Below, piece after piece: positions 46,657-64,000 of a DNA stretch of 64,000 bases. The DNA comes from Ktedonobacterales bacterium (GTDB lineage: Bacteria > Chloroflexota > Ktedonobacteria > Ktedonobacterales > DATBGS01): assembly GCA_036557285.1 (NCBI GenBank), contig DATBHW010000060.1, forward strand, positions 62,001 through 126,000. The letters run 5' to 3'. Position numbers and translations under genes: made by a program. The notes beneath the pieces were generated by a model. It ran no database searches, was not told the origin of the DNA, and saw only the letters and a list, made by a program, of their open reading frames with translations. Numbering within the stretch: position 1 is the stretch's first letter; each line of letters starts with the position of its first letter.

Positions 46657-46839
46657 ATGGCAAAGTCGGTAGTGCAGGCGATTGGGGAGTACGTGACCAT
46701 CCAGGGCGCGGCTGAGAAGTTGGGCAGTACCTTTTGGACTGTCTATGGGTGGGTTAAACGCAATAACATCCCGACGATTCGTGTTGGCCGGACCATCATG
46801 GTTCGACTGTCTGACCTGAGCGGCTTGGCAGCACGATAA
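46657..46839 (+). CDS. Excisionase-like helix-turn-helix protein
   Basis: 60-residue winged-helix protein of the MerR-like/HTH_17 excisionase type: MAKSVVQAIGEYVTIQGAAEKLGSTFWTVYGWVKRNNIPTIRVGRTIMVRLSDL. Such proteins bend att DNA to favour excision, or regulate the element. GAAAGGAGACAAGG precedes ATG at perfect spacing. It is the first gene after the island's strongest promoter and precedes the leader ORF and primase. A hairpin just after its stop could lower readthrough. Confidence 0.82.
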   Translation: MAKSVVQAIGEYVTIQGAAEKLGSTFWTVYGWVKRNNIPTIRVGRTIMVRLSDLSGLAAR

Positions 46840-46847
46840 AAAAAGCA

Positions 46848-46875
46848 CCCCCAGCGTGCGCAAACACGTTGGGGG
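46848..46875 (+). terminator. Hairpin after the HTH gene
   Basis: CCCCCAGCGTG pairs with CACGTTGGGGG, 11 bp with one wobble and a 6-base loop. It starts 9 bases after the HTH stop codon. There is no T tract, so it may attenuate transcription into the leader ORF and primase. Confidence 0.5.
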
Positions 46876-46927
46876 CCATCTCTTGACTTCTTGGGTGGTG
46901 CCAATGGAGTCAGGAAGGAGACATCTC

Positions 46928-46993
46928 ATGAACGGCGAATCTAACGCGAAGACGAAACGCACATTGCGAAAGGAGACATCTCACTTTGAATAG
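46928..46993 (+). CDS. 21-codon leader ORF coupled to the primase
   Basis: Tiny frame MNGESNAKTKRTLRKETSHFE. Its ATG is preceded by AAGGAGACATCTC. Its 3' end repeats the same ribosome site (AAGGAGACATCTCA, 14 bases, at about 46915 and 46970), and its TAG overlaps the TTG start of the primase by eight bases. The layout implies translational coupling, so ribosomes that finish the leader can begin the primase. The peptide is basic and has no known family. Confidence 0.6.
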   Translation: MNGESNAKTKRTLRKETSHFE

Positions 46994-49226
46994 TATAACA
47001 CACACCGAAACGGAAGCACCAAATTATCCCGAACGTGCGCTCTCCTACAGCGCACGAGGCTGGCATGTCTTCCCACTTCACAGCATGCGGCGGGATGGGG
47101 TCTGCACCTGCGGCAAGCCTGACTGCCAGAACCCAGCAAAGCACCCACGCACCCAAAACGGGCTGAATGATGCAACGAGCGACCCAGAACAGATACGCCA
47201 ATGGTGGGCACAATGGCCGGATGCCAATATTGGGATACGAACAGGCGAGATCAGTGGCTTGGTGGTGGTAGACATCGATACAAGACACGGAGCTACCCTC
47301 GATACGGTTAGACCTATTCCACCAACCGCACAAGTACGGACTGGTAGTGGAGGTTGGCATTTGTACTTCCGCTACCCAGTCGGGCTGGACATCAGGAATA
47401 GCAATTCAAAGATTGCCAAGGGCGTAGATATTCGTGCCAACGGAGGATATGTGGTTGCTCCACTCAGCTTGCATCAATCTGGCAGCCGCTATGAATGGGC
47501 AGGTGATGGGCTGGTGTCTCTGGCAGATCTACCCCCACATCTCCTTCAGAAGATCACCGCCAAGAAACAACGCGATACCACAGCCGCAGAAGGCGACGAA
47601 ATACCAGAAGGGCAGCGGAATAGCACCCTTGCAAGGATGGCCGGGAACATGCGGCATGCTGGTTTTGATGAGGAAGCCATCCTAGCTGCCTTGAAGGCAA
47701 CGAATGAAAACAGGTGCGACCCGCCGCTAGATGATGCTGAAGTGGAGCGTATCGCTGCCAGCATCTCCCGCTACGAGCCAAACCAGCAGTGGCAATTCAG
47801 CGCCCAAGATGACAGCGTGAAAGCCATCATCGAAGAAGATAGACTTTACACCGATACAGGCAACGCGCTCAGGCTTGCACAGATGTTCGGTGGTAAGCTG
47901 CGCCATACGAAGGAGTGGGGTTGGCTGGTATACGAGAATGGCAGATGGGTACAAGATGCCGAGAAACAGGCACGTGGCTTTGCCATAGACTCCATCAACG
48001 ACCTGATGAAAGAGGCACTCACTACCCAGGACAGAAACCGAAGCAACTTGCTCCGCGCCCATGCGCAGCGTTCTTATTCCAGCGGCAGGTTGAAAGCGAT
48101 GCTTGAGATAGCAGCAGGTCTACCAGGGATTGCAGCGCATGTACAAGATTTTGACAGCGACCCATATCTGCTGAACATCCGTAACGGCACGATCAACCTG
48201 AGAACTGGCAAGCTGCAACCACACAATCCGGCAGATTTGCTCATCAAGCAGGCGAATGTTGACTTTGACACAGCAGCCATAGCCCCTCGTTTCGAGCAGT
48301 TCATTAAGGAGGTATTTGGGGACAGCCAAAACCTCATCAACTACATCCAGCGTGTGATCGGCTATGCGCTTGTGGGGCAGAACAAGGAAGAAGTGTTCTT
48401 TATGGCGTATGGGACGGGGGCGAATGGGAAATCAACCTTGTTTAGCGTGGTGTCCAGCATCTTGGGAGACTACGCCCAGCCTTTGAAGGCAGATTCGCTG
48501 ATGAAACAACCACATGGAAGGAATAGCCAAGCAGCAGACCCAGAGCTAGCCGCATTGGTGGGGGCCAGGTTGGTAACAGCCTCTGAACCTTCAGAGAACC
48601 GGCTGGATATGGGCCGAATCAAGGAGCTAACTGGCGGTGAGACAATGCAGGTACGTGAGCTACACAAAGCCCCGTTCAAGTTCCGTCCTGGGTTCGCACT
48701 TATCCTATCCACCAACGAGCCTCCCAATCTGGGTGAGTATAACGAGGCAACACGCCGACGCATGCGACTCCTGCCTTTTAATCGCACATTCACCGAGAAG
48801 GAGCGCGACCTTTACCTGAAAGAGCGACTACTGTCTGAGGCATCCGGTATTCTCAACTGGATGATTGCGGGAGCACTGGCCTGGCTGCAATCCGGTCTCA
48901 CAGAACCAGCAGAGGCACACCGGGCTACAGAGGAGTATATCGCCAGCGATGACGAATACTACGGATTCTTTAACGACGTGCTGGTTGCTGACTCCGATGC
49001 GCGTATGCTTGGTAAGCCTGCATTTGAGGCGTTCAAAGAATGGGCCAGAGACGAGGAGGTGGACACGTTCAAACTCGACATCAGGGCTTTCTACAAGCTG
49101 GTGCAGAAACGCGGCATTATGACCAGGGTCACAGGCGGCAAGACGTGCCTGCTAGGCGTGCGGATGACTAAGGGCAAGGAGGCCAACACGCCACCGGATG
49201 GAGAGCCGGAAGAGATTCCTTTCTAA
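46986..49226 (+). CDS. Primase-polymerase/SF3 helicase (P4-type replication protein)
   Basis: 746-residue replication protein. The N-terminal bifunctional primase-polymerase domain (about 10-185) includes LVVVDIDTRHG and RTGSGGWHLYFRYP, which hold the metal-binding Asp pair and a catalytic His. A PriCT-like segment follows (about 200-265). A D5-like region and the helicase then come, with Walker A YGTGANGKSTLFSV (about 478) and Walker B/C in ARLVTASEPSENRLDMGRIKELTGGE and LILSTNEPP. Start is TTG 46986 behind AAGGAGACATCTCAC. This layout is the P4-family alpha-type initiator, so the island can probably replicate itself when excised. Confidence 0.92.
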   Translation: MNSITHTETEAPNYPERALSYSARGWHVFPLHSMRRDGVCTCGKPDCQNPAKHPRTQNGLNDATSDPEQIRQWWAQWPDANIGIRTGEISGLVVVDIDTRHGATLDTVRPIPPTAQVRTGSGGWHLYFRYPVGLDIRNSNSKIAKGVDIRANGGYVVAPLSLHQSGSRYEWAGDGLVSLADLPPHLLQKITAKKQRDTTAAEGDEIPEGQRNSTLARMAGNMRHAGFDEEAILAALKATNENRCDPPLDDAEVERIAASISRYEPNQQWQFSAQDDSVKAIIEEDRLYTDTGNALRLAQMFGGKLRHTKEWGWLVYENGRWVQDAEKQARGFAIDSINDLMKEALTTQDRNRSNLLRAHAQRSYSSGRLKAMLEIAAGLPGIAAHVQDFDSDPYLLNIRNGTINLRTGKLQPHNPADLLIKQANVDFDTAAIAPRFEQFIKEVFGDSQNLINYIQRVIGYALVGQNKEEVFFMAYGTGANGKSTLFSVVSSILGDYAQPLKADSLMKQPHGRNSQAADPELAALVGARLVTASEPSENRLDMGRIKELTGGETMQVRELHKAPFKFRPGFALILSTNEPPNLGEYNEATRRRMRLLPFNRTFTEKERDLYLKERLLSEASGILNWMIAGALAWLQSGLTEPAEAHRATEEYIASDDEYYGFFNDVLVADSDARMLGKPAFEAFKEWARDEEVDTFKLDIRAFYKLVQKRGIMTRVTGGKTCLLGVRMTKGKEANTPPDGEPEEIPF

Positions 49227-49232
49227 CTCGAT

Positions 49233-49266
49233 GGGGGCTGGCCTAACGGCTGGCCCTCTCTTTTTA
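49233..49266 (+). terminator. Intrinsic terminator after the primase
   Basis: GGGGGCTGGCC pairs with GGCTGGCCCTC (11 bp with wobbles) around TAAC and is followed by TCTTTTTAT. The remaining gap to 49571 shows no gene. Confidence 0.78.
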
Positions 49267-49571
49267 TCTGGTGGGGCATTTTGGCAGGTGAGGTAGGTGG
49301 GCAACATAGGTATCTCCCTATATTTTTTACCAAAGAGAGAGTTTTAGAAAATAATAGGGAAATACCACCCTCATCCCACCTATCCCACCTATTGGTTTCC
49401 GCAGCCGGAGTGGGCGAGGGTGTGTGGTGCCTTGCTCGGCTTTTGGTTTCGCATCCACGATACGATCAGCAGGAACTCTCTTCAGTAAGCAGGCGCGTTT
49501 TTTTCCACGTTTGATGACGACATACCCCAGGCTTGACACCGGCTGTATGCTGATGGTGAGAGGAGGCGCAC

Positions 49572-50570
49572 ATGGCAAACGAGGAGCATTTGGCTATTAT
49601 CAAACAAGGAGTAGAGGTCTGGAATAAATGGCGAGAAATTCCCAAAAGATACCCAAACCTGAGCGGGGCTGACCTGAGCGGGGCTGACTTGAGAGGAGCC
49701 TGGCTGGCTCAGACAAACCTGAGTGGGGCGAACCTGAGCGGGGCTAACTTGGGCGTAGCTGATCTGTGGAGAACAGACTTAACCGACGCTGATTTGAGCC
49801 ATGTTAATCTGACCGAGACCGCTGTCACAGGAACAGGTCTGAAAGCGGCAAACTTAAGCAGAGCCATATTGACTGGAACTCGCTTTACCCGATCTGACCT
49901 GAGCCAAACCAAATGGCAGGAAGCCATTATGAGTTACGTGATCTTTGGAGATGTAGACCTCACCCAAGCTCAGGATTTAGAAACCGTAATTCATGATGGA
50001 CCATCGACGATTGGGATTGACACTATCTATCGTTCGCAGGGCCAAATTCCAGAGGTGTTCCTGCGTGGCACTGGCGTCCCCGACAGCTTCATCGACTACA
50101 TGTGCTCGCTGACGGGCAAGCCGATTGATTATTACTCCGCGTTCATCAGCTACTCCAGCAAAGATGATGAGTTCGCCAAGCGGCTCTATAACGACCTGCA
50201 AGGAGCGGGGGTGCGTTGTTGGTTCGCGCCGGAAGACCTCAAGATAGGGGACGAGACACGGACACGGATTGACGAATCGATTCGCCTGCACGACAAATTG
50301 CTGCTCATCCTCTCCGAACATTCCATTGCCAGCGCCTGGGTCCAGAAAGAGGTCGAAACAGCCTTTGAAAAGGAGCGACAGCAGAAACGGCTGATGCTCT
50401 TTCCAATTCGGCTGGATTACACAGTGATGAACACTCCCACAGCATGGGCGGCGGATATTCGTCGGATGCGCAACATTGGGGACTTCACCCGCTGGAAAGA
50501 TCACGACGCCTACCAGAAAGCCTTTGAGCGCCTGTTGCGTGACCTGAAAGCCGCCTCTACCACAACCTGA
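49572..50570 (+). CDS. Pentapeptide-repeat/TIR fusion protein
   Basis: 332 residues. About 30-140 is a pentapeptide-repeat helix (LSGADLSGADLRGAWL, NLSGANLSGANLGVADL, repeating A-[DN]-L-x-x). The C-terminal TIR domain (about 195-325) reads DYYSAFISYSSKDDEFAKRLYNDLQGAGVRCWFAPEDL, then LLLILSEHSIASAWVQKEVETAF with the Trp and the likely catalytic Glu of bacterial NADase TIRs, then FTRWKDHDAYQKAF. In bacteria TIR enzymes cleave NAD to stop infected cells. The pentapeptide part may sense or scaffold. It lies between the replication gene and the AlbA_2 gene; GAGAGGAGG lies before its ATG. Confidence 0.85.
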   Translation: MANEEHLAIIKQGVEVWNKWREIPKRYPNLSGADLSGADLRGAWLAQTNLSGANLSGANLGVADLWRTDLTDADLSHVNLTETAVTGTGLKAANLSRAILTGTRFTRSDLSQTKWQEAIMSYVIFGDVDLTQAQDLETVIHDGPSTIGIDTIYRSQGQIPEVFLRGTGVPDSFIDYMCSLTGKPIDYYSAFISYSSKDDEFAKRLYNDLQGAGVRCWFAPEDLKIGDETRTRIDESIRLHDKLLLILSEHSIASAWVQKEVETAFEKERQQKRLMLFPIRLDYTVMNTPTAWAADIRRMRNIGDFTRWKDHDAYQKAFERLLRDLKAASTTT

Positions 50571-50630
50571 TGCACCGCCGTCGGACGCTATAATCGAGGA
50601 TACCAGCAAGAGAGAGGAGGTGAGAAACCT

Positions 50631-51506
50631 GTGGAAATACCTGAAAGAGTTGATGAGTGGACACTTGATACGGTCAAGGAGGTTGTCAGGAAGCACGAGT
50701 TTGAACCAGGGCGATTCGACTACAAAGCCTACTTACAACCTGCAACCCGTACCTCTGACCCAGACCACATCCCATCAATCCGTCGGACAGTTTGCTCAAT
50801 GGCAAATGCAGGTGGTGGGTACATCCTCTTTGGGATACTTGACAGGAGCATAAAAGTCCGCTCCCCTGATGAGCGGATTGTTGGGTTTCCTCTTGGGAAA
50901 GACCTCCTCAAACAGTTTGGAGAGAAGATTCAAGCAATTCAGCCAGATGTCTACTTTGAGGCTAGCCCTGCCCCAATAAAACTTTCCGACCCAGCTAAGG
51001 GCATCTTTGTCGTTCATATCCCTACAAGCCTGCGGCGGCCACATATGGTAGAGTCAACCGGCGCATTTTATAGGCGCGGGCAAGGCGGGCATGCGGTACA
51101 AATGGGATTCTACGAGGTGCGAGATCAAATGCTGTATACCGAAGAACTCCGTCGTAAGGTGACGCTCCTTCGCCTGGTGATTGCGCAGTACCTTGCCCAA
51201 ATGGAGAAGATGAGGTATGTAGCCCATAATCAGGGCAAAGTTCGTTTCGACACGCGGCCCTTTGCGACTATCCTGGTCGATGCCTCTATTTTCTTTCCAC
51301 CATCGGATGATCTACTCAAGGATTTGCTGGACATCCCTATTGTGGCCGACAACCTTCAGGAAATCGTGGAGAGCAAAGGAGCATATCAGGCTTCCGCATC
51401 AATAGAATACGCTGAACTTTCCAATCTCTGTAACAAATGCGAACATCGTTTTAATGAGCTTTTCGGTCTATTAGGGTTTGAAGGCTGGCCACCTACATCC
51501 AGCTAA
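50631..51506 (+). CDS. AlbA_2/Schlafen-type protein
   Basis: 291 residues. The N-terminal AlbA_2 domain (about 10-125) is recognised by VKEVVRKHEFEPGRFDYKAYL and CSMANAGGGYILFGILD, then HIPTSLRRPHMVESTGAFYRRGQGG. The C-terminal half has no known fold. AlbA_2 proteins bind nucleic acid and occur in regulators and defence proteins. GTG 50631 is used, after AGAGGAGGTG. It follows the TIR gene by 60 bases on the same strand and overlaps the convergent EVE-nuclease gene by four bases. It may be the partner of the TIR protein; this is inferred from location. Confidence 0.7.
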   Translation: MEIPERVDEWTLDTVKEVVRKHEFEPGRFDYKAYLQPATRTSDPDHIPSIRRTVCSMANAGGGYILFGILDRSIKVRSPDERIVGFPLGKDLLKQFGEKIQAIQPDVYFEASPAPIKLSDPAKGIFVVHIPTSLRRPHMVESTGAFYRRGQGGHAVQMGFYEVRDQMLYTEELRRKVTLLRLVIAQYLAQMEKMRYVAHNQGKVRFDTRPFATILVDASIFFPPSDDLLKDLLDIPIVADNLQEIVESKGAYQASASIEYAELSNLCNKCEHRFNELFGLLGFEGWPPTSS

Positions 51507-52669
51507 TTCTTGGTGTTCTCTTGCTGTCCTGTTAATTGGGCAAAATCACGTTCGCTAAGCTTGCGTGCTGCCTGAACAAACCATGCCCAAGGGCTGCTGG
51601 GGTCTCTTCCTTGAAAGACATCCAGGCTGCTTCTGAGGGCCGCATCAATGACAACAGGTTGCTTCAGGTACAGCTTGACATTCTCCACGCGAAACGCCCA
51701 AGGATATTTCTCTGGCGAACGAACCTTCGGATGAGGTTTGTATTCCGGCGCTGAGGCAACTCGTGCGTGTCCAACGACCCCAGTGCCAGTCGCGTAGAAG
51801 CAAATCCAATCTCCTGGCTTGATATGTTTTCTTCCAGGCGTCCGGTCCCCAAAGGCATACACATGCTCCTGACCCACCAGGGACTGAATTACTTCCTCAG
51901 CCGTCTGTTTCTCATCATCCGTCACAGGGGTAAGCCAGTACACAACATTCTTCTGGGCTGGTGCTACGGGCGGCGCAGGTGCCTCCTCTGGTTCGGTGAT
52001 CTCTTCTGGCTTTGGTCCCGTCAGCAGGCGAGACATTAACTGGACAATGGGGTCAATCCTCGGAACTGAAGGGCGAACAACTTCAAGGAAGTCTTTGTGC
52101 GTTCCATATTGGGACATCATCTCGGCGAGTGAGAGCAGGGCATCAGTAGAAATCACCCGCAACTGGTGGGTGCGCTTCTCGCCGACAATGGCATTCTCCA
52201 GTTGAGAGACTTTCGGGTCGGGCCGTCCTACGACGTAGAGACCCAAGGCATGCTCCCAATCGGGAATCCGCTTGGCCGAAATGAGTTCGTCAATATACCC
52301 TAACAACGTTGCTGTCTTGACTGAGTACACTTCGGTTGTCTTCACCTCAACCACCATATGGAAACCAGTCGGGGAGACCCAAAGGCCATCGAAGCCAATC
52401 TGCCCCTGGACCCCCTGATAGCGCCCAAAGGTGACGGTAAACCCAAACAACTGCCCCAGGTGATTCACCAGGTCTTGAAGAGCGCGGCTGTATTGATCCC
52501 CTGATGTTCGCAAGCACTCTTCGATATAATCTCGAACCTGGCCGATCTGCTTGATATTCTCTCCAAGGTATTTGCGAAAGCGTTCTCGTGAGGTCTGCTC
52601 TCCTGCGGAATCGTCAAGCGTGCCAACGAGGGATAAAATCGTTTTGAGGTTGATGTCTGTGTTGCTCAT
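51503..52669 (-). CDS. PD-(D/E)XK nuclease-like protein with EVE domain
   Basis: 388 residues. The N-terminal part (about 60-180) has a restriction-endonuclease-like core: FDGLWVSP, then HMVVEVKTTEVYSVKT, with the Asp and Glu-x-Lys of the PD-(D/E)XK fold. A linker with acidic and Pro residues follows. The C-terminal EVE domain (about 245-365) shows GDWICFYATGTGVVGHARVAS and FRVENVKLYLKQPVV. EVE domains bind modified bases, so the protein probably restricts DNA with modified nucleotides. GAGGTGAG lies before ATG. It follows hsdM on the minus strand after 211 bases. Confidence 0.8.
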   Translation of the reverse strand: MSNTDINLKTILSLVGTLDDSAGEQTSRERFRKYLGENIKQIGQVRDYIEECLRTSGDQYSRALQDLVNHLGQLFGFTVTFGRYQGVQGQIGFDGLWVSPTGFHMVVEVKTTEVYSVKTATLLGYIDELISAKRIPDWEHALGLYVVGRPDPKVSQLENAIVGEKRTHQLRVISTDALLSLAEMMSQYGTHKDFLEVVRPSVPRIDPIVQLMSRLLTGPKPEEITEPEEAPAPPVAPAQKNVVYWLTPVTDDEKQTAEEVIQSLVGQEHVYAFGDRTPGRKHIKPGDWICFYATGTGVVGHARVASAPEYKPHPKVRSPEKYPWAFRVENVKLYLKQPVVIDAALRSSLDVFQGRDPSSPWAWFVQAARKLSERDFAQLTGQQENTKN

Positions 52670-52880
52670 TACTCACCTCGCCAATTCTTCGTGTCCCCCA
52701 CACCAAACCCGTTCCTGTCCAAAAGCGCACCCCCTGAAAATGCCCCTCATTTCCACAATCCTGGGTGCCTCAGAGTGCTTGAAAAGTGGCGCGAGCCGCA
52801 GTAACAGATTCGTTAATTTCTTTATCAGAATGCCAGGCAATCCCTCGTTAATGACCCAGAGATAGGGCTGAATTGCATCG

Positions 52881-54371
52881 TTATTCGCCGGTAATTAGGC
52901 TCCCATTGCCCAACTCCTCGGCTATCGCAGCGAATTGCTCCAGCGCCGCTTGCAAATCCTCCACAATACTGGCAGCAAGCACACTAGGCAAGGGCAGACT
53001 ATCAGCCCCCTCCAGGCTTTCATCGCGCAACCAGAACAGATCAAGACTCACCTTATCCCGTTTGAGCAATTCTTCGTAACTGAAGACGTGGAATCGCTTC
53101 GTCTCCTGGCGCTGATGGCGATTTTCTGGATGGTAGCAGGTCACGAAATCATCGAGATGAGCACGAGTGAGCGGATTGGTCTTGAGGGTGAAATTCTGGT
53201 TGGTGCGCAGATCATACACCCACAGTTCCTTCGTCCAGGGAGTCGCGCTGGCAGGCTTCTTGTCGAAGAACAGCACGTTCGCCTTGACGCCCTGCGCGTA
53301 GAAGATGCCGGTGGGGAGACGCAGCAGGGTATGCACCTCACACTCTTGCAGCAGCTTGCGCCGGACGGTCTCCCCAGCCCCACCTTCAAAGAGCACATTA
53401 TCTGGCACCACCACCGCCGCACGCCCGTTGATCTTGAGCAGGGTTTTGACGTGCTGGAGGAAGTTGAGTTGCTTGTTGCTGGTGCTGGCGGTGAAATCAT
53501 CCCGCACGATCACGCTAGCCTCGCGTTCCTCCTTGCCTTCCTCGTTGACATAAGTAACGCTGCTCTTGCGCCCGAACGGGGGATTGGTCAGCACCATATC
53601 AAAACGGTCGCCTGGGTCGCCACGTAAGCTATCAGCCACGCGAATGGGCACCTCGCTGCCGTCCTCATCGCCACCGATGCCGTGCAAGAAGAGATTCATC
53701 AGGCAGAGCCGCGCCGTGTTATCGACAATCTCCCAGCCATGCAACGCCTGGTAGCGAAGGAAGTGCTTCTGGTCCCGGTCTAGCTCATAGTGATGGGTGA
53801 TGTAGTCGTGAGCCGCCAGGAGAAAGCCACCTGTTCCGCAGGCCGGGTCGCAGATACGCTGATCGGGTTCAGGGCGCATCGCATCGACGGTGGCCCGAAT
53901 GAGCGCACGCGGCGTGAAGTATTGCCCGGCCCCACTCTTGAGGTCTTCCGCATTCTTCTGGAGCAGCCCTTCGTAGGCATCGCCCTTCACATCGGTATCC
54001 AGCGTGATCCAGGTTTCTCGATCAATCAGGTCCACGATGAGGCGACGGAGCTTGGCCGGGTCTTGAATCTTGTTCTGGGCTTTGCGGAAGATCAGGCCGA
54101 GCATGCCTGGTTGTTTCCCCAACTCTTCCAGGGTATGCCGGTAATGCGTCTCCAGGTCGTCCCCATCCCGCGCGAGTAGACTGGGCCAATCGTGCCCGGC
54201 TGGAATGCGCGAAGGCTGGTGATAGGGCGGCTGGGTGCGCTCGTGGGCCATCTTGAGGAACAGCAGGTAAGTCAGTTGCTCTACGTAGTCGCCGTAGGAC
54301 ATGCCATCGTCCCGCAGCAGATTGCAGTAATTCCAGAGGCGTTGCACTATCGCCTGGGAAGCGTTGCTCAT
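52881..54371 (-). CDS. hsdM: Type I restriction-modification methyltransferase subunit
   Basis: 496 residues, N6-adenine DNA methyltransferase of a type I system. The N-terminal HsdM_N region (about 1-140) is followed by the SAM-binding DPACGTGGFLL (about 195) and catalytic NPPFGRKS. The FTPRALIRATVDAMRPEP region before it is typical. It lies 25 bases downstream of hsdS. With HsdS it methylates the two half-sites; with HsdR it forms the restriction complex. The composition is like the flanking hsd genes. AAGGAG lies before ATG 54371. Confidence 0.94.
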   Translation of the reverse strand: MSNASQAIVQRLWNYCNLLRDDGMSYGDYVEQLTYLLFLKMAHERTQPPYHQPSRIPAGHDWPSLLARDGDDLETHYRHTLEELGKQPGMLGLIFRKAQNKIQDPAKLRRLIVDLIDRETWITLDTDVKGDAYEGLLQKNAEDLKSGAGQYFTPRALIRATVDAMRPEPDQRICDPACGTGGFLLAAHDYITHHYELDRDQKHFLRYQALHGWEIVDNTARLCLMNLFLHGIGGDEDGSEVPIRVADSLRGDPGDRFDMVLTNPPFGRKSSVTYVNEEGKEEREASVIVRDDFTASTSNKQLNFLQHVKTLLKINGRAAVVVPDNVLFEGGAGETVRRKLLQECEVHTLLRLPTGIFYAQGVKANVLFFDKKPASATPWTKELWVYDLRTNQNFTLKTNPLTRAHLDDFVTCYHPENRHQRQETKRFHVFSYEELLKRDKVSLDLFWLRDESLEGADSLPLPSVLAASIVEDLQAALEQFAAIAEELGNGSLITGE

Positions 54372-54396
54372 CTCAAGGGTACTCCTTCTCGCTGAT

Positions 54397-55968
54397 TCAT
54401 TCCTCGTCCCACAGGCTCACCTGCTCTGCCGCCACCCGCTCCACCTGTCTGGCCTCTATGAACACTGGCACCCGTTCCTTGTTCTGCTTCGTCGCTCGCT
54501 CTCGGCGTATCCGTTCCAGCAGCACACTCGCAGGCTCATCATTCGGGTCTTGGTGTACCAGCCGCCCAGCAAATGCCTCGCGTAAAATGCTCTGCCGCAG
54601 CCGTTCAGCGCGTTTGAGGTTGGCTTCGACTGTTGCCTCCAGTTCGCTTACCACCGAGAGGCGGCGTTCGACCTCAGCTATGATCCGTTCCTGCTCGACA
54701 AGAGATGGCAGTGGAACTGGACAATTGCGCAGTTGAGTCAGGTTAATAGAGGCCAAATTGGTTGTTTGTTTGCTAGCTTCGAGAAAATAGGCTTGCCCTT
54801 GCTCTGAATTCGCATAGGTGACTAACCATTGGGGTGGCATCCGCTGATCAATGAGCCGTGCTCGAAAGATATGGTTCTGGTGGATACAGGGTTGGATTTG
54901 ACCTTGCCAAAGTGCAGCGCGGCCTAGCTTATCAGCATCCCCACCTTCAGTCAGAACTACATCACCCTCATGAAGCAAATACCGATCAATTTCATCTGTG
55001 GGGACTTCAATGGTCTTCATTATCTCTAGATCAAGGAACCCCCTCTGAACATTAGCAACACGCAGATAGGGCAATTCCACCGTAGAACGGCCAGCCAGAT
55101 TGCGACCCTTGGTGACGCCGCCTACAACATTAGTCAATTGCTCTACACTTGCCCAGCACCATCCCTCCGGCAACGCTGGCAGGTCTGTCGTATCCGGCCC
55201 AGCAGACTCCTCGTAGCGTACCTTCGCCGGGTCTTTGCCCTTCATTCGCATATCAACTCCCCACCGGGCACGCCGCTCAGCCAGGATGCGCTGCAACAAG
55301 ACGGAGGCAGGTTCGGTATCAGGATGCTCGGCCCGCCAGGCTTCCGTCAGCTTCCCCTCTACCGCTGCTTTGAGGACTGCCGCCCGATAACGTTTGAGCC
55401 TGGTCTGTGCTGATTTGAGCGCCGCTACACCTGCATCCAGTCGGGTGAACTGCTGCTCAATGGCGGCCACGATGCGCTGATGCTCGGCAAGAGGGGCGAG
55501 AGAAATCTCAAGTTGGCGAATATATTCTAAGCCTAAATCGGGCTGGCTACTTGCACGAATATGACGCCGCATTTGCTCTTGTAGACCTGCTGAACGAAGA
55601 GCATAGAGCAAATAATCAACCAGTTCAGGCAAGTGAAGCGTTTTTATAATGGCTATGCTGTATGATGCCTGGAATGGAGCATCTGTGGAGACTTTCCTGA
55701 CCTCACCGATAGTTCCATATCGAGAAAGAAGAATATCACCTTGTTCCGGTATGATCTTTCTGGTTAGAGCTGTGTAGTCTTCAGGTGAGATGCGTTTAGC
55801 GCCTTCGAAATCAATCTGGTTGTCTCCATAGAAATCCTTGGTACTGATGTAAGGTATTCCAGACTCTACTGCACGAGGCATTTTATGGTCTACATCACCA
55901 ATGCGCACAGTTATATCTGCTAAGGCGGTCCAACACCATCCTGGTGGTAGTTTGTTCTCCTCACTCAT
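54397..55968 (-). CDS. hsdS: Type I restriction-modification specificity subunit
   Basis: 523 residues with two target-recognition domains (about 15-165 and 255-415), each followed by a long helix that spaces them. One helix region reads IVAAIEQQFTRLDAGVAALKSAQTRLKRYRAAVLKAAVEGKLTEAW, the other IIAEVERRLSVVSELEATVEANLKRAERLRQSILREAFAGRLV. This is the normal full-length design and recognises a bipartite sequence, not predictable here. The stop of hsdR overlaps its start (ATGA type), so the genes are translationally coupled. It is transcribed before hsdM. Confidence 0.94.
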   Translation of the reverse strand: MSEENKLPPGWCWTALADITVRIGDVDHKMPRAVESGIPYISTKDFYGDNQIDFEGAKRISPEDYTALTRKIIPEQGDILLSRYGTIGEVRKVSTDAPFQASYSIAIIKTLHLPELVDYLLYALRSAGLQEQMRRHIRASSQPDLGLEYIRQLEISLAPLAEHQRIVAAIEQQFTRLDAGVAALKSAQTRLKRYRAAVLKAAVEGKLTEAWRAEHPDTEPASVLLQRILAERRARWGVDMRMKGKDPAKVRYEESAGPDTTDLPALPEGWCWASVEQLTNVVGGVTKGRNLAGRSTVELPYLRVANVQRGFLDLEIMKTIEVPTDEIDRYLLHEGDVVLTEGGDADKLGRAALWQGQIQPCIHQNHIFRARLIDQRMPPQWLVTYANSEQGQAYFLEASKQTTNLASINLTQLRNCPVPLPSLVEQERIIAEVERRLSVVSELEATVEANLKRAERLRQSILREAFAGRLVHQDPNDEPASVLLERIRRERATKQNKERVPVFIEARQVERVAAEQVSLWDEE

Positions 55969-58754
55969 GCCACGAGCCTCTCATTGATGTCTTGGAGCAT
56001 TGCTGGAAACTCCTGCCCAAAGACTTGATATGCCTTGCCCAGCCCACCCCGCTGGCTGAAGGGCACGTTATCGAAATCACTCGGATCGATGGTCAGTGAG
56101 GTCGCCACATGCTCCCGCATCAACTCCAACCATTGCCGCTGCTCCGGGGTGAAGGGTTGCCCTCGTCGCTGCTCCTGCTCCTCCAGCCAAATGGCAAAGC
56201 GTCGGCGGATGACCTCCGCATATGGCTCCAACCTGGCCTCCTGATCGTGCTCCCGCTCCAGCGCATACCGCACCAACGCCACCAGGTCGGTGAGCAGATG
56301 CCTCGTCCCCACGCCCTGCACCCGTGCCCCATCCAGCCGTTGATACGCCTGCCAGAGCTTGTCGGTCGTCAATCCGAGCGGAGGCGCTTGAATGGCTGCG
56401 GCCAGTTGCTTGATGTCCTTCAGGCGGAGCGTTGCATGGCGTGGGCCGTTGTAGAGTACCTGGAGGGCCGTAATCTCATCTCGATGCTCCTCAATGAACT
56501 GCCGAAAGCTCCCCACCGCCTGCCGAGCCTGCTCCTCCGCTCTGGCATCCCACTCTGCTGCTAACAGCGTATCCTGGCTCACCACATCAATCGTCTGTTC
56601 GTCGCGCTTCTGAATGTCAATCAAGAGCTTGCGTAAGGCTGGGTTGTCAAACGGGGCTACTACCCCGGCCATAAGGAGCTTCGCTGCCTTCTGAATTGCC
56701 TGTTCATCCGGCTCCTTTTGCCCGGTGGCTTGTCGCGCAATCTCCAGATGTTGGTCAGGGTCACAGGCAGCAATCAGCGCCTCGGCCAGGTCACGAATCT
56801 CCATCCCATCGGCCTGCTGTATAATCTCCTTCTGATCCGCCAGTGTCGCTTTGCGCCCCAACCGTCCCAGCCGCCCGGCCAGCGAGAGCAGCGTATCCTC
56901 ATCACGATTGCCCAAGGCCACCGAGGTCAGCAGCTTGTCAAACGGCACCGAGCGTTTGCGTTCCAATGATGGTTCATCCGTCTTCAGTCGCTCACACACC
57001 CCAACCGCATCCACCAGCACGAAACGGTCTTTGCTGCGCGCATCGGGCGTGACCGCTTGAAAGTCATCGTCCGAGATCGTGCGGGTGCCGCGCCCTTTCA
57101 TCTGTTCGAAGAAGCCCTTGCCCCTGACTGAGCGCATAAAGAGCAGCACTTCCAGTGGCTTAACATCGGTGCCAGTGGCGATCATATCCACCGTGACGGC
57201 GATGCGCGGATAGAAGCTGTTGCGGAAGCTGGCGATGAGGTCTTCAGGCTTGCTGCCGGTGGTCTTGTAGGTGATCTTCTGGGCAAAGTCGTTGCCCCGG
57301 CCAAACTCCTCGCGTACAATCTGTACAATGTCATCAGCGTGGCTATCATCCTTGGCGAAGATCAGCGTCTTGGGCACTTCCTTGCGGCCAGGGAAGAGGT
57401 CGGTAAAGAGGGCATCGCGGTAGGCGCGGATGACGGTGCGAATCTGATCTGGGGTGACGACATCCCGATCAAGTTGACTAGCCCCGTAGTTGATCTCCTC
57501 ATCGACCTGTTCCCAGCGTTTCGCTCGCGTCAGCCTATCCCGCTTATCAACGTAGTAGCCCTGCTCGATGGTGCTACCCCGCTCGGTAATCGCCGTGCGA
57601 ATCCGATAGACCTGATAATCGACATTGACGCCATCAGCCACCGCCCGCTCGTGCCCATACTCCATGACCAGATTGCTATTGAAGAAGCCAAACGTCTGCT
57701 TGTTAGGCGTGGCTGTCAGGCCAACGGTGAAGGCATCAAAATACTCCAGCACGCCCCGCCAGAGGTTGTAGATGCTCCTATGGCACTCATCGGTAATAAT
57801 CACATCAAACGTCTCGATGGGCACCTGGGGGTTGTAAAGCACTTCCTTGGGGGGCTGGGAGGCAAGGGTAGCATCCAGATCAAAGAGGGAGCCTTCTTCC
57901 AAGGACGCATCAAACTCTGGCTCGCCGGAGAGGATGGAGTAGAGGCGCTGAATGGTGCTGATGCAGACCCGTGCGACCCGATCAATTGAGTTACTTTGCA
58001 GGTGTTGGACATTATACAGTTCGGTAAACTTGCGCCCATCATCCGGCGTAATAAACTGTTCAAACTCCTTGAGCGTTTGTCGTCCCAGATTGGAACGATC
58101 TACCAGGAAGAGCACCCGCCGCGCCCCGCCGAATTTGATGAGCCGGTAGACACTGCTGACTGCCATGTAGGTCTTGCCGCTGCCCGTCGCCATCTGCACT
58201 AACGCGCGTGGCCGGTTCTGCCAAAATGATCGCTCTAGATTGGTGATCGCTTCCACCTGGCATTCACGCAGCCCGGTGCGAGGAAGTGGGGGCAGGCGAA
58301 GGAGACGCGCTCGCATAATCTGGTTCTCACTGGCTTCGGGAGCCTGGGCCAGCCATTCAGCCAACGTCTCAGGCCGATGGAAAGCAAAGACGGAGCGGCT
58401 GCGTGGATCGGGGTCCAAGCCATTGGTGAAGCGGGTTTCTACTCCAGTCGTCTCATAAGCAAAGGGCAGCGGAAAGCAGGCGACAGGGAGCGCACCTGGA
58501 CGGCCTTCACGATACTTTGTACTCTGCACCTCGACCCCGGTGAGCGTCTCGCCTTCTTTCTTGGCCTCCACCACCCCTACCGCCTGGCGATCTACCACGA
58601 GCAGATAATCGGTTGGGCCGGTTGAAAGCGGAAACTCACGAATGGCAACCCCTCTTCCAGCACCCAGATTCAGCGCCCCAAAATCCTGCACTACCCACCC
58701 AGCCTGAGCGAGCATACCATCAATCTTCTGACGGGCTTTCGCTTCCGGTGTCAT
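55965..58754 (-). CDS. hsdR: Type I restriction-modification restriction/translocase subunit
   Basis: 929 residues. An N-terminal HSDR_N nuclease (about 30-110) holds Asp in TDYLLVVDRQ and EAKK, the PD-(D/E)XK site. The SF2 translocase shows MATGSGKTYMAV (Walker A), ITDECHRS (DEAH-like) and the later VLLFMRSVRGKGFFEQMKGRGTRT. An EcoEI-type C-terminal domain follows. ATG 58754 follows GGAAGGAGG; an extra eight codons begin at GTG 58778. hsdR comes first in the operon, ahead of hsdS and hsdM, so all three subunits are present and look intact. Confidence 0.95.
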   Translation of the reverse strand: MTPEAKARQKIDGMLAQAGWVVQDFGALNLGAGRGVAIREFPLSTGPTDYLLVVDRQAVGVVEAKKEGETLTGVEVQSTKYREGRPGALPVACFPLPFAYETTGVETRFTNGLDPDPRSRSVFAFHRPETLAEWLAQAPEASENQIMRARLLRLPPLPRTGLRECQVEAITNLERSFWQNRPRALVQMATGSGKTYMAVSSVYRLIKFGGARRVLFLVDRSNLGRQTLKEFEQFITPDDGRKFTELYNVQHLQSNSIDRVARVCISTIQRLYSILSGEPEFDASLEEGSLFDLDATLASQPPKEVLYNPQVPIETFDVIITDECHRSIYNLWRGVLEYFDAFTVGLTATPNKQTFGFFNSNLVMEYGHERAVADGVNVDYQVYRIRTAITERGSTIEQGYYVDKRDRLTRAKRWEQVDEEINYGASQLDRDVVTPDQIRTVIRAYRDALFTDLFPGRKEVPKTLIFAKDDSHADDIVQIVREEFGRGNDFAQKITYKTTGSKPEDLIASFRNSFYPRIAVTVDMIATGTDVKPLEVLLFMRSVRGKGFFEQMKGRGTRTISDDDFQAVTPDARSKDRFVLVDAVGVCERLKTDEPSLERKRSVPFDKLLTSVALGNRDEDTLLSLAGRLGRLGRKATLADQKEIIQQADGMEIRDLAEALIAACDPDQHLEIARQATGQKEPDEQAIQKAAKLLMAGVVAPFDNPALRKLLIDIQKRDEQTIDVVSQDTLLAAEWDARAEEQARQAVGSFRQFIEEHRDEITALQVLYNGPRHATLRLKDIKQLAAAIQAPPLGLTTDKLWQAYQRLDGARVQGVGTRHLLTDLVALVRYALEREHDQEARLEPYAEVIRRRFAIWLEEQEQRRGQPFTPEQRQWLELMREHVATSLTIDPSDFDNVPFSQRGGLGKAYQVFGQEFPAMLQDINERLVA

Positions 58755-58810
58755 GGATTCGGCCTCCTTCCCTACCACCTGACATCATGAGGAAAAGTTC
58801 AAGCAAGGAC

Positions 58811-58819
58811 AGTATAGCA
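58811..58819 (-). promoter_or_regulatory. Extended -10 promoter for the hsd operon
   Basis: On the minus strand TGCTATACT lies about 57 bases before the hsdR ATG. The -35 region at 17-18 bases is poor, so activity would depend on the extended -10. Confidence 0.5.
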
Positions 58820-58889
58820 GAACACAGCCGCAGAAGGAAAGGAGCAATCAACTTCCCCATCTGAGATAAAAGATGATGGCTCGAAGACT

Positions 58890-59111
58890 TTGCTAAATCC
58901 TGCGCCCCCCCACGACGTAGCGATCAAGGCAATCTTTCTCCTGTGGAGGAGGGGGAGATGGGAGCAGTTGCGCCAGGTCTTCCCCGACCTCTCAAGGGCG
59001 GAGATCAACGCGAAGTTTGTTGCCTTTGATGAGGATTTCATCGAGGGCAATGCAGGGATCAAGACTGACGATCAGGTGTTCGGCCTGGTCAGGTGGCTGA
59101 TGCAGCACTGA
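58890..59111 (+). pseudogene. Protein-like fragment without a clear start
   Basis: A frame reading AIKAIFLLWRRGRWEQLRQVFPDLSRAEINAKFVAFDEDFIEGNAGI and ending RWLMQH has protein-like composition. It has no ribosome site or good start; it opens at a TTG just before a run of seven Cs. It lies in the 1.04-kb gap between hsdR and the cargo genes, and may be the tail of a decayed gene. No family is recognised. Confidence 0.35.
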
Positions 59112-59301
59112 GTGTGTCAACTTTATCTGCGCTTTGAGGAGCCGAAGGGCTACAAAGTCAAATACGAACAGCCAGCGTTACTCGCCAATTATTCAAGCGT
59201 CCAATCAGAAGGGTGCTCGAAAGATTGGATAAGGCCGAACACGGGGAGAGCGGATGGGGGATAGATATAACGCCTGTCCAGTTAGGCTGGATAGCCACTG
59301 T

Positions 59302-59356
59302 CCCATTTTTTGGGATAGTCCCAATTATTGGGCGAGTAACTGCCCCAAATTTTGGG
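59302..59356. repeat. Array of three 13-bp palindromes
   Basis: CCCATTTTTTGGG (59302), CCCAATTATTGGG (59320) and CCCAAATTTTGGG (59344) follow each other with starts 18 and 24 bases apart. The two right units continue similarly, as GGCGAGTA and GGTGAGTA. The conserved CCCA/TGGG ends around a variable AT core, in non-coding DNA of the island, fit operator or iteron sites for a regulator or replication initiator. Confidence 0.75.
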
Positions 59357-59481
59357 TGAGTAGGCGCGACTCCCTGCGCAGAATCTAGCTGCTCCCAGGA
59401 GGGACTGCCCCTTCAGAGGGGCGTGTATCTTAAAACGAACCTGGTCCTGTATCGAAATTCGGTACTGTTCCCTTCCCTGGT

Positions 59482-59550
59482 ACAGTGTCCTCTGAGGAAC
59501 CAGTAACAGGGTCCGTTGCGGATACGGTGCCCTCTGCGGAACCAGTTGCT
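59482..59550. repeat. Degenerate 42-bp repeat in non-coding DNA
   Basis: A unit beginning ACAGTGTCCTCTGAGGAACC is followed 42 bases later by a similar one beginning ACGGTGCCCTCTGCGGAACC. In one frame it would read EEPVTGSVADTVPSAEPV, but no start or ribosome site supports a gene. Confidence 0.5.
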
Positions 59551-59792
59551 GCGCTTACTTTGCCCTTTTCGGGATATAGCCCCAGATATAGAAGGTACTG
59601 GAAGGGCTGGAGGCTGGCCCCACAGCCCCACCCTCTGCCGTGTACACGATGGAGATGGGGGCAGGTTTCCGGTTTTTGTCCCCTCAAAAAGAATAACTGA
59701 GGGCCAGGGCGGGGCATGCCTAGCCCTGAATAGCGTACTTGAAAGGCGCGTGCGCGGCATGCGCTTTTCTGTTGCCTTTTTGGAAGGAGGCA

Positions 59793-60017
59793 ATGCGGTT
59801 GGAAAAGATGCTTGATTTCTACGACAGATGGGCGGCTGCTTATGCGCTGGCGACAGGCGTAAAATTGGTAAAGGTGCTGCCCGGTGGATGGACAGCATAC
59901 ACGTTTGATGATTCAGACGGGCAAGCCAGTAGAGCATTAGGCGAATGGCGAGCAGGGCAGGCATTGGTACAGGCCAAAGCATATGCGGAGGCGTTCAGAC
60001 AATTGAGACGTTATTAA
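59793..60017 (+). CDS. Small island cargo protein (74 residues)
   Basis: MRLEKMLDFYDRWAAAYALATGVKLVKVLPGGWTAYTFDDSDGQASRALGEWRAGQALVQAKAYAEAFRQLRRY. No family is recognised; the composition is protein-like with a likely helical end. ATG 59793 is right behind GGAAGGAGGCA, an excellent ribosome site. It is 35 bases before the next gene on the same strand and probably co-transcribed with it, downstream of the palindrome array. Confidence 0.6.
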   Translation: MRLEKMLDFYDRWAAAYALATGVKLVKVLPGGWTAYTFDDSDGQASRALGEWRAGQALVQAKAYAEAFRQLRRY

Positions 60018-60052
60018 GGCCGCAAACGGCACAGAAAGGGACAGGTGTAAGG

Positions 60053-60952
60053 TTGAAAGAGTTATCTGAGGATGCACGGCGGCTCATCCATGCGTATGTA
60101 GAACACGGCGTTACAGTGCAGGATGCTGCAACAATGGCGGGGCTAGGCGCAATAGAAAGGGTGAAGGCGCTATCAGAGCTACGGCAGACTGGCTTGCTTA
60201 CGGGGGATACGGCAGACACCCTGGTTATCAAAGATTGGGCAGGGGTGCTGCCCTGCCCAGATGAAGGAAAGAAAGAAGAAGAGCAGGCATTTCTGCCTGC
60301 TCAGACTGATACCTCCCCATCTGCCTCCAGGTGTTCGGCAACTGGGGAGGGGGAAGGGGTGCACCCCTTCCCTGAAGGAAGGAAAGAAGAACCCAGTCGG
60401 GATGAAAGACGTACCATCCCTTCCCTTCTCTTTCCCTCCCCTCCCATATCTTATCGTTATACTGGTGCGAAAGCTGCCGAGCTTGAATACCCAGAACCGG
60501 ACCCAGGCTGGTTTAATCAAGGAACTGCTATAGCGAAGGATAGGGAAAGCTATTGGGCATTGGTAGAATACTATCAAGGCTATGCAGACGGCGTAGCGGA
60601 TGTATTTAGGGAAGTAGATGAGCAGGTAGCAAGGCTTGGGTACGGCACGCCTAGGACAGAAGGGCAGAAATGGCGCAATAAGCAGAAGGGCTTGGTACAA
60701 CAGGCTTGGGGTGTCTTTTTCAGGTACAACCATCCGCTCACCAACCTGTACGCAAAGAAGCTGCTGCATGCCTGCGATAACAGGATGGAGAAGCTACTAG
60801 ACTTTATGGCACATGTCGCCCCACGTCTCCACCTCCCAGAGAACTTCTCAGAAAAAGGGAAGCCGCTGAAGTTTCCATTTGCTTACATCATGAAACTGAT
60901 TGAGAAGGATAAGCAGGGGAAGCCAATAGACGATGGTATGCCCATCTTCTGA
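60053..60952 (+). CDS. Island cargo protein with HTH-like N-terminus and low-complexity linker
   Basis: 299 residues from TTG 60053, with AAGGGACAGG before it at a loose spacing; an ATG frame reaches back to 59945 but overlaps the previous gene. The N-terminus (LKELSEDARRLIHAYVEHGVTVQDAATMAGLGAIERVKALSELRQTGLL) resembles a winged-helix DNA-binding unit. A low-complexity region (about 70-120, Ser/Glu/Pro/Lys-rich) follows. The C-terminal 160 residues look folded, with DNRMEKLLDFMAHVAPRLHLPENF, and match nothing I recognise. It may be a regulator or a replication accessory of the island. Confidence 0.55.
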   Translation: MKELSEDARRLIHAYVEHGVTVQDAATMAGLGAIERVKALSELRQTGLLTGDTADTLVIKDWAGVLPCPDEGKKEEEQAFLPAQTDTSPSASRCSATGEGEGVHPFPEGRKEEPSRDERRTIPSLLFPSPPISYRYTGAKAAELEYPEPDPGWFNQGTAIAKDRESYWALVEYYQGYADGVADVFREVDEQVARLGYGTPRTEGQKWRNKQKGLVQQAWGVFFRYNHPLTNLYAKKLLHACDNRMEKLLDFMAHVAPRLHLPENFSEKGKPLKFPFAYIMKLIEKDKQGKPIDDGMPIF

Positions 60953-61077
60953 GGATGGCCGGACAGGATAGGTACGGATGCCTACTCTGCTTTTCTTTTG
61001 CCTTGTTACCAGTCATACAGAAAAGCGTTTTAATGCTTGAAAGCCACAATCAAACTGATGTGCAGATGGAGGGAAAG

Positions 61078-61650
61078 ATGAAGCAGAAGCCTTGGAACGA
61101 GCAGCCAAAGGGAAAGAAAATCGTGGCGGTGCTTGCCGCGCTTATTTCCCTCGTGTTTCTTCTGGCATGCAGCGATACATTGGATGCCGAGATAAATGCA
61201 ACGGAGACAGCCCAAGCCCTTACACCCACACCTACGCCTACCCTTGTTCACCAAATTACTGACCTCGTGACGCACTACAAGCCGGACGGTACTTCTGATA
61301 ATCTGCAAGGGGTTATCACTGGCGCTGCCCAAAATGGAACCATCTACCGGGTTGACATTACAGAAAAAAAGACAAAGCTTGGGGCGCTGACTGCTCGCGG
61401 AGTCATTCAACGGGATACCTACGACATCATGGACGCCCTATATGCAAGCAGTCTCCATCCAACTTCTGTGACGGTGCGCGTCTTTGGTCCCTTCACGGAT
61501 AAATACGGCAATACCAGTAATGAGGAGTGGGCGTTAGCGATCTTGACCAAAGAGACAGAAGAAAAGTTCAACTGGAAGGGGCTGACCTATCGAAGCGCAT
61601 GGGCCGTCTACGATCAGGCCAAATATCTGATGGATTGGTTGCAGGAGTGA
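61078..61650 (+). CDS. Island-encoded lipoprotein of unknown function
   Basis: 190 residues. After a basic start, the hydrophobic helix IVAVLAALISLVFLLAC (lipobox LLAC, Cys near residue 31) gives a lipid-anchored secreted protein. A TPTPTPT linker follows, then a folded domain: TDLVTHYKPDGTSDNLQGVITGAAQNGTIYRVDITEKK and TSVTVRVFGPFTDKYGNTSNEEWALAIL. No family is recognised. ATG 61078 follows GGAGGG. It is the last gene of the island before about 1 kb of non-coding DNA, and may act at the host surface, for example against superinfection; that is speculation. Confidence 0.65.
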   Translation: MKQKPWNEQPKGKKIVAVLAALISLVFLLACSDTLDAEINATETAQALTPTPTPTLVHQITDLVTHYKPDGTSDNLQGVITGAAQNGTIYRVDITEKKTKLGALTARGVIQRDTYDIMDALYASSLHPTSVTVRVFGPFTDKYGNTSNEEWALAILTKETEEKFNWKGLTYRSAWAVYDQAKYLMDWLQE

Positions 61651-62469
61651 TATTGGGGCTATTACGAACTTCAGCGAACAGTGTTGAACTTGGTAGAAGC
61701 TCCGATTAAACGGGCAGGGAGTTGATTGGAAGATACCGCCAACCTCCCCTTGAGACAAACAGGGATGGCATACACATTGTTCAACTTCCTGTTGGCTACG
61801 GCGCAACTTTCGGCCATGTTGCCAAGACTGGGTAGACTGGTGTGCACGGCTTTCTTTGCTGGTTGCCTGAACTTCAAGAAACATCGCTCAAGTCACGGGA
61901 ACAAGCTTACGAGTAGACCATCTTCAACGCGGACTATGCCGAAGGCTCCAGATGTGTCTCTTGTCCTAGCGACAGCATGCCCAAAGGGAAGAGTGGAAGG
62001 CCGGTCAGACAAGGGCGTCTGTCTGGTCCTTTTTTGTCCGCAAACTTCTACTCCCCCGGTAGATTTTTTGGGATCGCGCAAAGTTCAAAAGGGGAGCGAA
62101 TTTGTCCGGCTGGTACTCTCTGACACTCACCTCTTCGTTTGATACGAAGCAAAGGACCTCCTTTTATAGAAAGTGAAGCACTCTATGCCTCTCCCCGCCT
62201 TGCCGGACACATGAGATGCTATGCTGACCTCACCCGCCATCTCCACCCATCATCTCCCTGGTACACGGCCATGATCTTCGTGCTTGTTCCCACAGAGCGA
62301 TGTTCTTCTCTAACCCCACACTCTGAAGGGAATGTGCAACCCTTCATCATCTTGAGAGCAGCACACCATGCCTGGTTGAGCAAGATCGCAAACTCCCTCA
62401 ACACCATGCCTGATCATCGGCCACACGAACCAGATTAGGAATGGCGGGGTCTGGGGCTGCTTTATCCGA
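61651..62469. other. About 0.8 kb without a credible gene
   Basis: Between the lipoprotein and the right-end promoter no frame has a convincing start or composition. A stretch at 61726-62142 is open but has no ribosome site and a poor protein-like makeup. A terminator hairpin lies inside. Confidence 0.5.
62003..62036 (+). terminator. Intrinsic terminator at the right end of the island
   Basis: GGTCAGACA pairs with TGTCTGGTCC with a one-base bulge, followed by six T. It would end any transcript coming from the cargo genes. Confidence 0.65.
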
Positions 62470-62499
62470 TTGACACGAGCGAGCAATGTGTGGTAAAAT
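62470..62499 (+). promoter_or_regulatory. Consensus promoter facing the attachment site
   Basis: TTGACA and TAAAAT are separated by 18 bases, a near-perfect promoter. It points right, across attR. In the integrated island it faces the chromosome; in the excised circle it would face attP and then int. Confidence 0.75.
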
Positions 62500-62506
62500 C
62501 TATCTG

Positions 62507-62659
62507 TAGGCTCTGTTTGGGCAAGGGAATATCGGGTGTTCGGCAGGGGTCTACGGCGAAAAATGTTGATGCGCTTGCATGCTGTGTCAGGTGGTTAAGG
62601 CGATGCTGGGACTGCTCTGAGCAGGTCCGGCATGACGTGCCGACAGGCAGGAGGCACTA
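62507..62659 (+). ncRNA. Candidate structured RNA upstream of attR
   Basis: The stretch after the right-end promoter has no open frame. It carries several local pairings: a 9-bp hairpin in GGACTGCTCTGAGCAGGTCC (62611-62630, one bulged base), and GTGGTTAAGGCG at 62591, the same 12 bases as in the D loop of tRNA-Cys. GGCGATG at 62599 could pair with CGTCGCC at the repeated tRNA 3' end. Whether a stable RNA is made is unproven. Confidence 0.35.
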
Positions 62660-62713
62660 GGGGGTCTGCAAAACCCCTATCGGCGGTTCGAATCCGCCCG
62701 TCGCCTCCAGGCT
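62660..62713. repeat. attR, 54-bp direct repeat
   Basis: Exact copy of 44398-44451, here without the 5' part of tRNA-Cys, so it is a partial tRNA marking the right end of the island. Confidence 0.95.
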
Positions 62714-62766
62714 ATCCACCCTTCCGAATCCAGGAAGTAATGGAGACACGAGCAGCTATACAAGCA

Positions 62767-62800
62767 AGAGAGCCTCGTCAGGTGCGAGGCTCTCTTTATT
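62767..62800 (+). terminator. Terminator after attR
   Basis: AGAGAGCCTCG and CGAGGCTCTCT form a perfect 11-bp stem followed by TTTATT. It is probably the original terminator of the tRNA operon, now downstream of attR. The rest of 62714-63031 shows no gene. Confidence 0.8.
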
Positions 62801-63031
62801 GCTAACCAGACGTATTCATCTTGTGACTGATCATTGCTTTGTTCCCTCAGGTCTTGCTGGCACGCGACGTAGCGCATTCGCCTGTCGGCAGAGCAGATGT
62901 ACCCACAGCAAGTGATACGGGCGAGCATCCCTAAAATGTGATAAGATCAACGTTGGTAAAAGTACAGGGTTGGCGGAGAGGGGAAACGCCCATGAACCGC
63001 CCGTGAGACCTTGTGCGCGGAGGAAGTTTCT

Positions 63032-64000
63032 TTGAGCGATCCCCTATTTGATAGACTGGCAAACCTGGAAACCCGCTACGAAGAATTAAATAGCCTGATG
63101 GGCCAGCCCGAGGTCATCGCCGACCCGAATCTGCTCGAACGCTATGGGCGCGAATACGCCAACCTGGAGCCTCTCGTTGCAAAGTATCGGGATCTGAAAG
63201 AAACGGTACGCCAGCGCAATGACACGGAAGAGATGCTTGGGAATGGGCTGGATGACGACTTGCGCGTCCTGGCCCGCGAAGAGTTGGACCGATTGCGCCG
63301 ACAGGAAGAGCGGCTCCTGGAAGAACTCAAGGTGGCGCTGCGCCCCAAGGATGTGATGGACGAGCGCAATGTCATCGTGACTATCCAGGCAGGCGCTGGC
63401 GGAGACGAGGCGGGACTTTTTGCCGCCGATCTCTTCCGCATGTACAGCCGCTACGCCGAGGATAAGCGTTGGAACCTTGAAGTGCTGGACTCCAACGAAA
63501 GCGGTATCGGCGGCTTCAAAGAAATGGTCTTTGAGGTGCGGGGCAAAGGCGTTTACTCGCGTCTGAAATATGAAGGCGGCACGCATCGCGTTCAGCGCGT
63601 CCCCGTCACGGAATCCAGCGGGCGCATCCACACCTCAACCGCGAAAATAATCGTTCTGCCCGAAGCCGAAGACGTTGAGGTCGAGATCAAGCCCGAAGAT
63701 ATTCGCGTTGATGTCTATCGCTCCACCGGACACGGCGGCCAGAGCGTGAACACCACCGACTCTGCGGTGCGCATCACTCATTTTCCCAGCGGCCTCGTCG
63801 TCACCTGTCAGGACGAAAAATCGCAATTGAAGAATAAGAACAAAGCGATGGCCGTCCTGCGCGCGCGGCTCTGGGATCTGGAGCAGCAAAAACGGGCCGC
63901 CGAACTTGGCGCGGCGCGGCGCTCGCAGGTGCAGACTGGAGACCGAAGCGAGAAAATTCGCACTTACAATTTTCCCCAGGATCGAGTCACCGACCATCGT
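63032..64000 (+). CDS. prfA: Peptide chain release factor 1 (partial, runs off window)
   Basis: Release factor 1, which reads UAA and UAG and triggers peptide release. The start is TTG 63032 behind GGAGGAAG. The 323 codons present show the N-terminal coiled coil, [21 protein letters not shown], then [31 protein letters not shown]. The anticodon-like PVT in [20 protein letters not shown] and the GGQ loop in [22 protein letters not shown] follow. The stop lies beyond the window. Chromosomal, directly after the tRNA terminator; TTG start is unusual but the ribosome site is strong. Confidence 0.93.

Follow-up and report, generated by a model that had tools for sequence, protein, structure and literature searches.

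The locus raised the question of how an integrase gene apparently lacking a promoter of its own could be transcribed while its mobile element sits in a tRNA gene, and after the element has left it. The window, which is the whole stretch of DNA analyzed, was 64,000 nucleotides long and came from a Ktedonobacterales bacterium. Two perfect 54-bp direct repeats, at 44398–44451 and 62660–62713, spanned the 3' part of tRNA-Cys plus GGCT and enclosed a mobile element of 18.26 kb seated in the tRNA-Cys gene. Apart from the tRNA-Cys at the left end, no complete copy of this tRNA was found in the 5.1-Mb genome; therefore, the element must restore tRNA-Cys. The features that bear on transcription were as follows.

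44208–44236, + strand: TTGACA-17-TAATCT promoter serving the tRNA-Gly/tRNA-Cys operon, its −10 preceded by TGG
44287–44361, + strand: tRNA-Gly(GCC)
44373–44447, + strand: tRNA-Cys(GCA), intact, its 3' part contributed by the element
44398–44451, + strand: attL core, 54-bp direct repeat
44509–45447, + strand: int1 (int below), tyrosine recombinase of 312 aa that has the residues R, K, HxxR, H and Y
62470–62499, + strand: right-end outward promoter, TTGACA-18-TAAAAT, extended −10, by motif match
62660–62713, + strand: attR core, 54-bp direct repeat, equal to a tRNA-Cys 3' fragment
62766–62796, + strand: intrinsic terminator belonging originally to the tRNA-Gly/Cys operon, −21.9 kcal/mol

The upstream side of int was investigated by rejoining the flanks of the element in silico. 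The rejoined order was tRNA-Gly, tRNA-Cys, and then the terminator 57 nt further. The related genomes contributed 19 tRNA-Cys loci, the nearest relatives compared being of the same order. A terminator-like hairpin lay no more than 130 nt away in 16 of these loci. A TTGACA-17/18-TA promoter lay upstream of the tRNAs, likewise in 16 of 19, and a promoter of this type occupied the equivalent place upstream of tRNA-Gly. Since the flank joining and the related loci both place a terminator near tRNA-Cys, the terminator beyond attR was assigned to the tRNA operon. Judged by this arrangement, the operon's own terminator is displaced by 18.3 kb through the insertion of the element. The int ATG was 57 nt past the left repeat, and the gene was co-directional with the tRNA. 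No terminator-like hairpin was found on the + strand between 44448 and 46500, the scanner's first + strand match in the element being at 49233, and the interval from tRNA-Cys to int contained no promoter scoring above 8/12. With neither a terminator nor such a promoter in this interval, int should depend on upstream transcription. In the integrated state, it would be transcribed through read-through from the tRNA-Gly/Cys promoter, as had been proposed.

The right-end promoter, originally predicted to point across attR, was present, with TTGACA at 62470–62475, a spacer of 18 nt, TAAAAT at 62494–62499 and TGG immediately 5' of TAAAAT. Its predicted start was at about 62506–62507. In the integrated element, the RNA from this promoter would cross attR and end about 260–290 nt on, at the displaced terminator; the expected run into a chromosomal terminator thus agreed with the terminator found there. 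On excision, attR and attL would fuse to attP, and the promoter would then read through attP into int, its transcript starting about 264 nt before the int ATG. In this way, the circle would keep a supply of integrase for reintegration, int itself being apparently promoterless. The results suggested that 62470–62499 is probably a promoter of the sigma-70 type, providing the mRNA for integrase once the element is an excised circle.

The original prediction further held that integrase would be raised only after excision. This stood for the right-end promoter, which by its geometry would meet int only in the circle. It did not stand for int transcription overall, because the tRNA promoter has a perfect −35 and may already yield plentiful int mRNA in the integrated state. 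From the layout, transcription of int should be expected in both the integrated and the excised states. That the promoter is active, that the element excises and that the circle gains integrase on balance are inferences.

The int start codon lies in a predicted hairpin that the earlier reading of the locus missed and that could make the difference between the two states translational too. Three related 14-mers at the element ends (A1, A2 and A3) were involved in its predicted folding.

44470–44525, + strand: predicted hairpin (about −31.6 kcal/mol) enclosing the int start codon, with the SD AAAGGA in the loop and the AUG in the stem
44472–44485, − strand: repeat A2 (ATACGCTTGCACGC), putative arm site for the integrase or middle strand of an RNA switch
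44509–44522, + strand: repeat A3 (ATGCGTTTGGACGC), overlapping the int start codon
62569–62582, + strand: repeat A1 (ATGCGCTTGCATGC), complementary, in the transcript of the circle, to A2

The local fold at the int start (−31.6 kcal/mol) was the most stable of 265 ATG starts sampled across the genome (mean −12.7, sd 4.9), and no T-run followed the hairpin. The predicted energy of the A2:A3 duplex, which forms the hairpin, was −33.9 kcal/mol, and that of the competing A1:A2 duplex was −31.5 kcal/mol. By folding, opening the stretch from the SD to the AUG cost 14.3 kcal/mol in the read-through leader (19th of the 265 starts) versus 8.1 kcal/mol in the circle leader. The int AUG was mostly unpaired in the predicted circle leader, and this effect was lost when A1 was removed. 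The opening in the circle leader was matched by none of 100 shuffled right ends and by none of 440 random genomic segments. The direction of the effect did not change at temperatures between 25 and 65 °C or when more coding sequence was included. In the read-through mRNA, A2 would pair with A3 and the int start codon would be hidden. In the circle mRNA, A1 from the right end would be transcribed first and capture A2, and the start codon would be freed. Co-transcriptional folding would favor this opening, since A1 is transcribed ahead of A2 and A3. It is conceivable, though rather doubtful, that the excision junction builds an RNA switch in this way, restraining integrase translation in the integrated element and releasing it on recombination, beyond the change of promoter.

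The same repeats can be read in another way that rivals the RNA layer and is compatible with the promoter switch. A1, A2 and A3 may be integrase arm-type DNA sites, the hairpin and anti-hairpin being by-products in RNA, and Int would autoregulate at its own start. This reading has nearly an even chance of being correct. Three exact ATRCGYTTGSAYGC copies were found, confined within the window to the element ends, but this count is not independent because the pattern was derived from the same three copies. A3 covers the int start, and negative autoregulation has been reported for tRNA-linked integrases such as KplE1 intS (PMC2951348). However, arm sites leave the outward promoter at the right end unexplained.

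Whether the element could still excise was considered from its genes. The gene order from left to right was int1, int2, the candidate excisionase, the primase-polymerase/D5 gene, the pentapeptide-TIR gene and the Schlafen-type gene, followed by a weak match to an EVE domain and, on the minus strand, a type I restriction system.

45510–46391, + strand: int2, tyrosine-recombinase paralogue of int1 with most catalytic residues lost
46468–46496, + strand: further strong promoter (TTGACT-17-TATAAT), serving the xis/primase genes
46657–46839, + strand: candidate excisionase of 60 aa, excisionase-family HTH (TIGR01764)
46986–49226, + strand: primase-polymerase/D5 helicase-type replication protein
49572–50570: pentapeptide-repeat and TIR domain protein
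50631–51506: Schlafen AlbA_2 protein, adjoining the pentapeptide-TIR protein

The candidate excisionase matched TIGR01764 with an E of 2.1e-6 and 28.0 bits, slightly below the cut-off of 28.8. With this candidate and the intact catalytic residues of int1, the element may still be mobile. In int2, the catalytic Arg, Lys, His, second His and Tyr were replaced (GMS, GGHN, IDTLRQ, MGLP and FLQA), and the reading frame remained open across 293 aa. Since the frame is open despite the lost residues, int2 may be a DNA-binding accessory or directionality factor. A search for int2 orthologues returned only the same integrase family. The pentapeptide-TIR protein, the Schlafen AlbA_2 protein and the type I restriction system are possible defense cargo. 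The adjacent + strand ORFs at 59945–60952 (335 aa) and 60955–61650 (231 aa) matched nothing significantly in Pfam, NCBIfam or PADLOC. No relaxase, type IV secretion or any other conjugation gene was recognised with Pfam, NCBIfam and PADLOC among the larger ORFs, and on this basis the element does not appear to be an ICE.

The promoter-like site could also be a chance match in the non-coding right end, or the element a fossil beyond excision, so that the promoter never meets int. How often such sites occur in this genome was investigated over 430 kb, or 861 kb of strand. Both strands together contained 21 sites with a score of 11/12 or better, about 16 times the number given by an order-3 Markov simulation of the chance level (about 0.15 per 100 kb per strand, or about 1.3 expected). 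Fourteen of the 21 fell outside large ORFs, several of them a short way upstream of one. Within 44001–64000 of the window, two sites reached 11/12 or better, the right-end promoter being one of them. From the genome's own density, the probability of such a site in a given single-strand strip of 240 nt was about 0.6%. The excess of 21 over about 1.3 sites indicates that the genome uses such promoters and makes it unlikely that the one in the right-end strip arose by chance. A fossil would fit the decayed int2, and neither a circle nor a close relative was found. Against it, int1 is intact, the att repeat is perfect over 54 bp and a candidate xis is present. Chance or fossil origin was thus considered unlikely. 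It is more improbable still that the promoter is real but serves a short RNA of about 290 nt in the integrated state, its reaching int in the circle being incidental: this RNA would run from the promoter to a strong terminator, its fold is better than that of shuffled sequences (z −3.4), and it includes a segment complementary to the int leader, so that its action in trans on the read-through mRNA is even conceivable, but the terminator is the host tRNA operon's and not the element's, the fold is largely tRNA-derived or the terminator itself, and no Rfam family matched.

The promoter switch, as the preferred reading, was compared with known systems. In ICEKp1 of Klebsiella pneumoniae, it was demonstrated that the element displaces the tRNA-Asn terminator, and that transcription of int begins at the tRNA promoter in the integrated state and at a 3'-end promoter in the excised state (PMC13023037). 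Stem-loops in the 5'-UTR lower the read-through, and a 15-bp segment of the 3' end was proposed in silico to unpair one stem-loop (PMC13023037). The same 2026 paper extended the int promoter switch to ICEclc and ICEEc1 by reporter assays (PMC13023037). The element studied here resembled ICEKp1 in its site at the 3' end of a tRNA, its co-directional int just inside, and the tRNA terminator displaced to the far end. It also had a tRNA promoter upstream of int and a sigma-70-type promoter at the far end, here identified by sequence features alone, as well as a predicted stem-loop in the int leader and a far-end segment predicted to open it. ICEKp1 is conjugative and occupies tRNA-Asn in a gammaproteobacterium, whereas the present element lies in tRNA-Cys of a member of Chloroflexota, with no conjugation genes recognised. 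Transcription in ICEKp1 starts 15 bp from the end, in contrast to the long leader here of about 264 nt.

In ICEclc of Pseudomonas, the outward promoter Pcirc drives intB13 across attP after circularisation (PMC2892462, PMC9286271, PMC13023037). The likeness to Pcirc and intB13 is one of layout, an outward far-end promoter reaching the integrase gene across attP. ICEclc is an ICE of about 103 kb that targets tRNA-Gly, unlike this 18.26-kb element in tRNA-Cys. The order of tRNA and then int on the same strand (STI) was the commonest tRNA-integrase layout in a survey (736 of 1273), and many integrases in the STI layout were predicted to be autoregulated (PMC2951348). KplE1 intS shares the STI layout and an att region overlapping the int control sequences. 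Its int promoter overlaps attL and is repressed by Int, whereas nothing above 8/12 was found here between tRNA and int.

The element matched the switch in its sequence-level features: a repeat restoring the tRNA, a co-directional int with no promoter above 8/12 before it, a displaced terminator and an outward far-end promoter motif. The switch itself is already known from unrelated proteobacterial ICEs; what this locus suggests as new is its occurrence in a distant phylum and in a non-conjugative element. The int promoter switch may be a general way for tRNA-integrated elements to avoid loss after excision. The element also gives a clear sequence pair for the unproven idea from ICEKp1 that the joined ends alter the folding of the integrase leader. 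If the RNA layer is true, the recombination event itself would release integrase translation.

Relatives of the element were searched for. No close relative of the whole element, of int1 or of either element end was found. Most related integrases in the order lay in other orientations to their tRNA. The only other element found with int co-directional to its tRNA was that of G053, with an int 31% identical. Near its right end, only promoter sites of 9/12 were found, in AT-rich DNA, with one of 10/12 about 340 nt from the core. No comparative support was found for the RNA layer, as G053, the single other co-directional element found, had no start-codon switch.

A 'tRNA-Cys' called by ARAGORN at 62636–62709, across attR, had no support from Rfam and was rejected as the attR fragment. 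Since ARAGORN calls it and Rfam does not, automatic annotation may list a false tRNA there. Just outside the attR core, GTGGTTAAGGCG at 62591–62602 was identical to the tRNA-Cys D-arm (44387–44398) and was followed by a long hairpin; it may be left over from the 5' half of the tRNA. A second tRNA-Cys place in G013, on two contigs, was an ordinary chromosomal flank and not an element end. In G005, locus L152 (G005:C204, 5768–5811) held a tRNA-Cys 3' fragment (attR), an int facing the opposite way and then a terminator. With such a fragment beside an integrase, tRNA-Cys appears to be a repeated target in the order.
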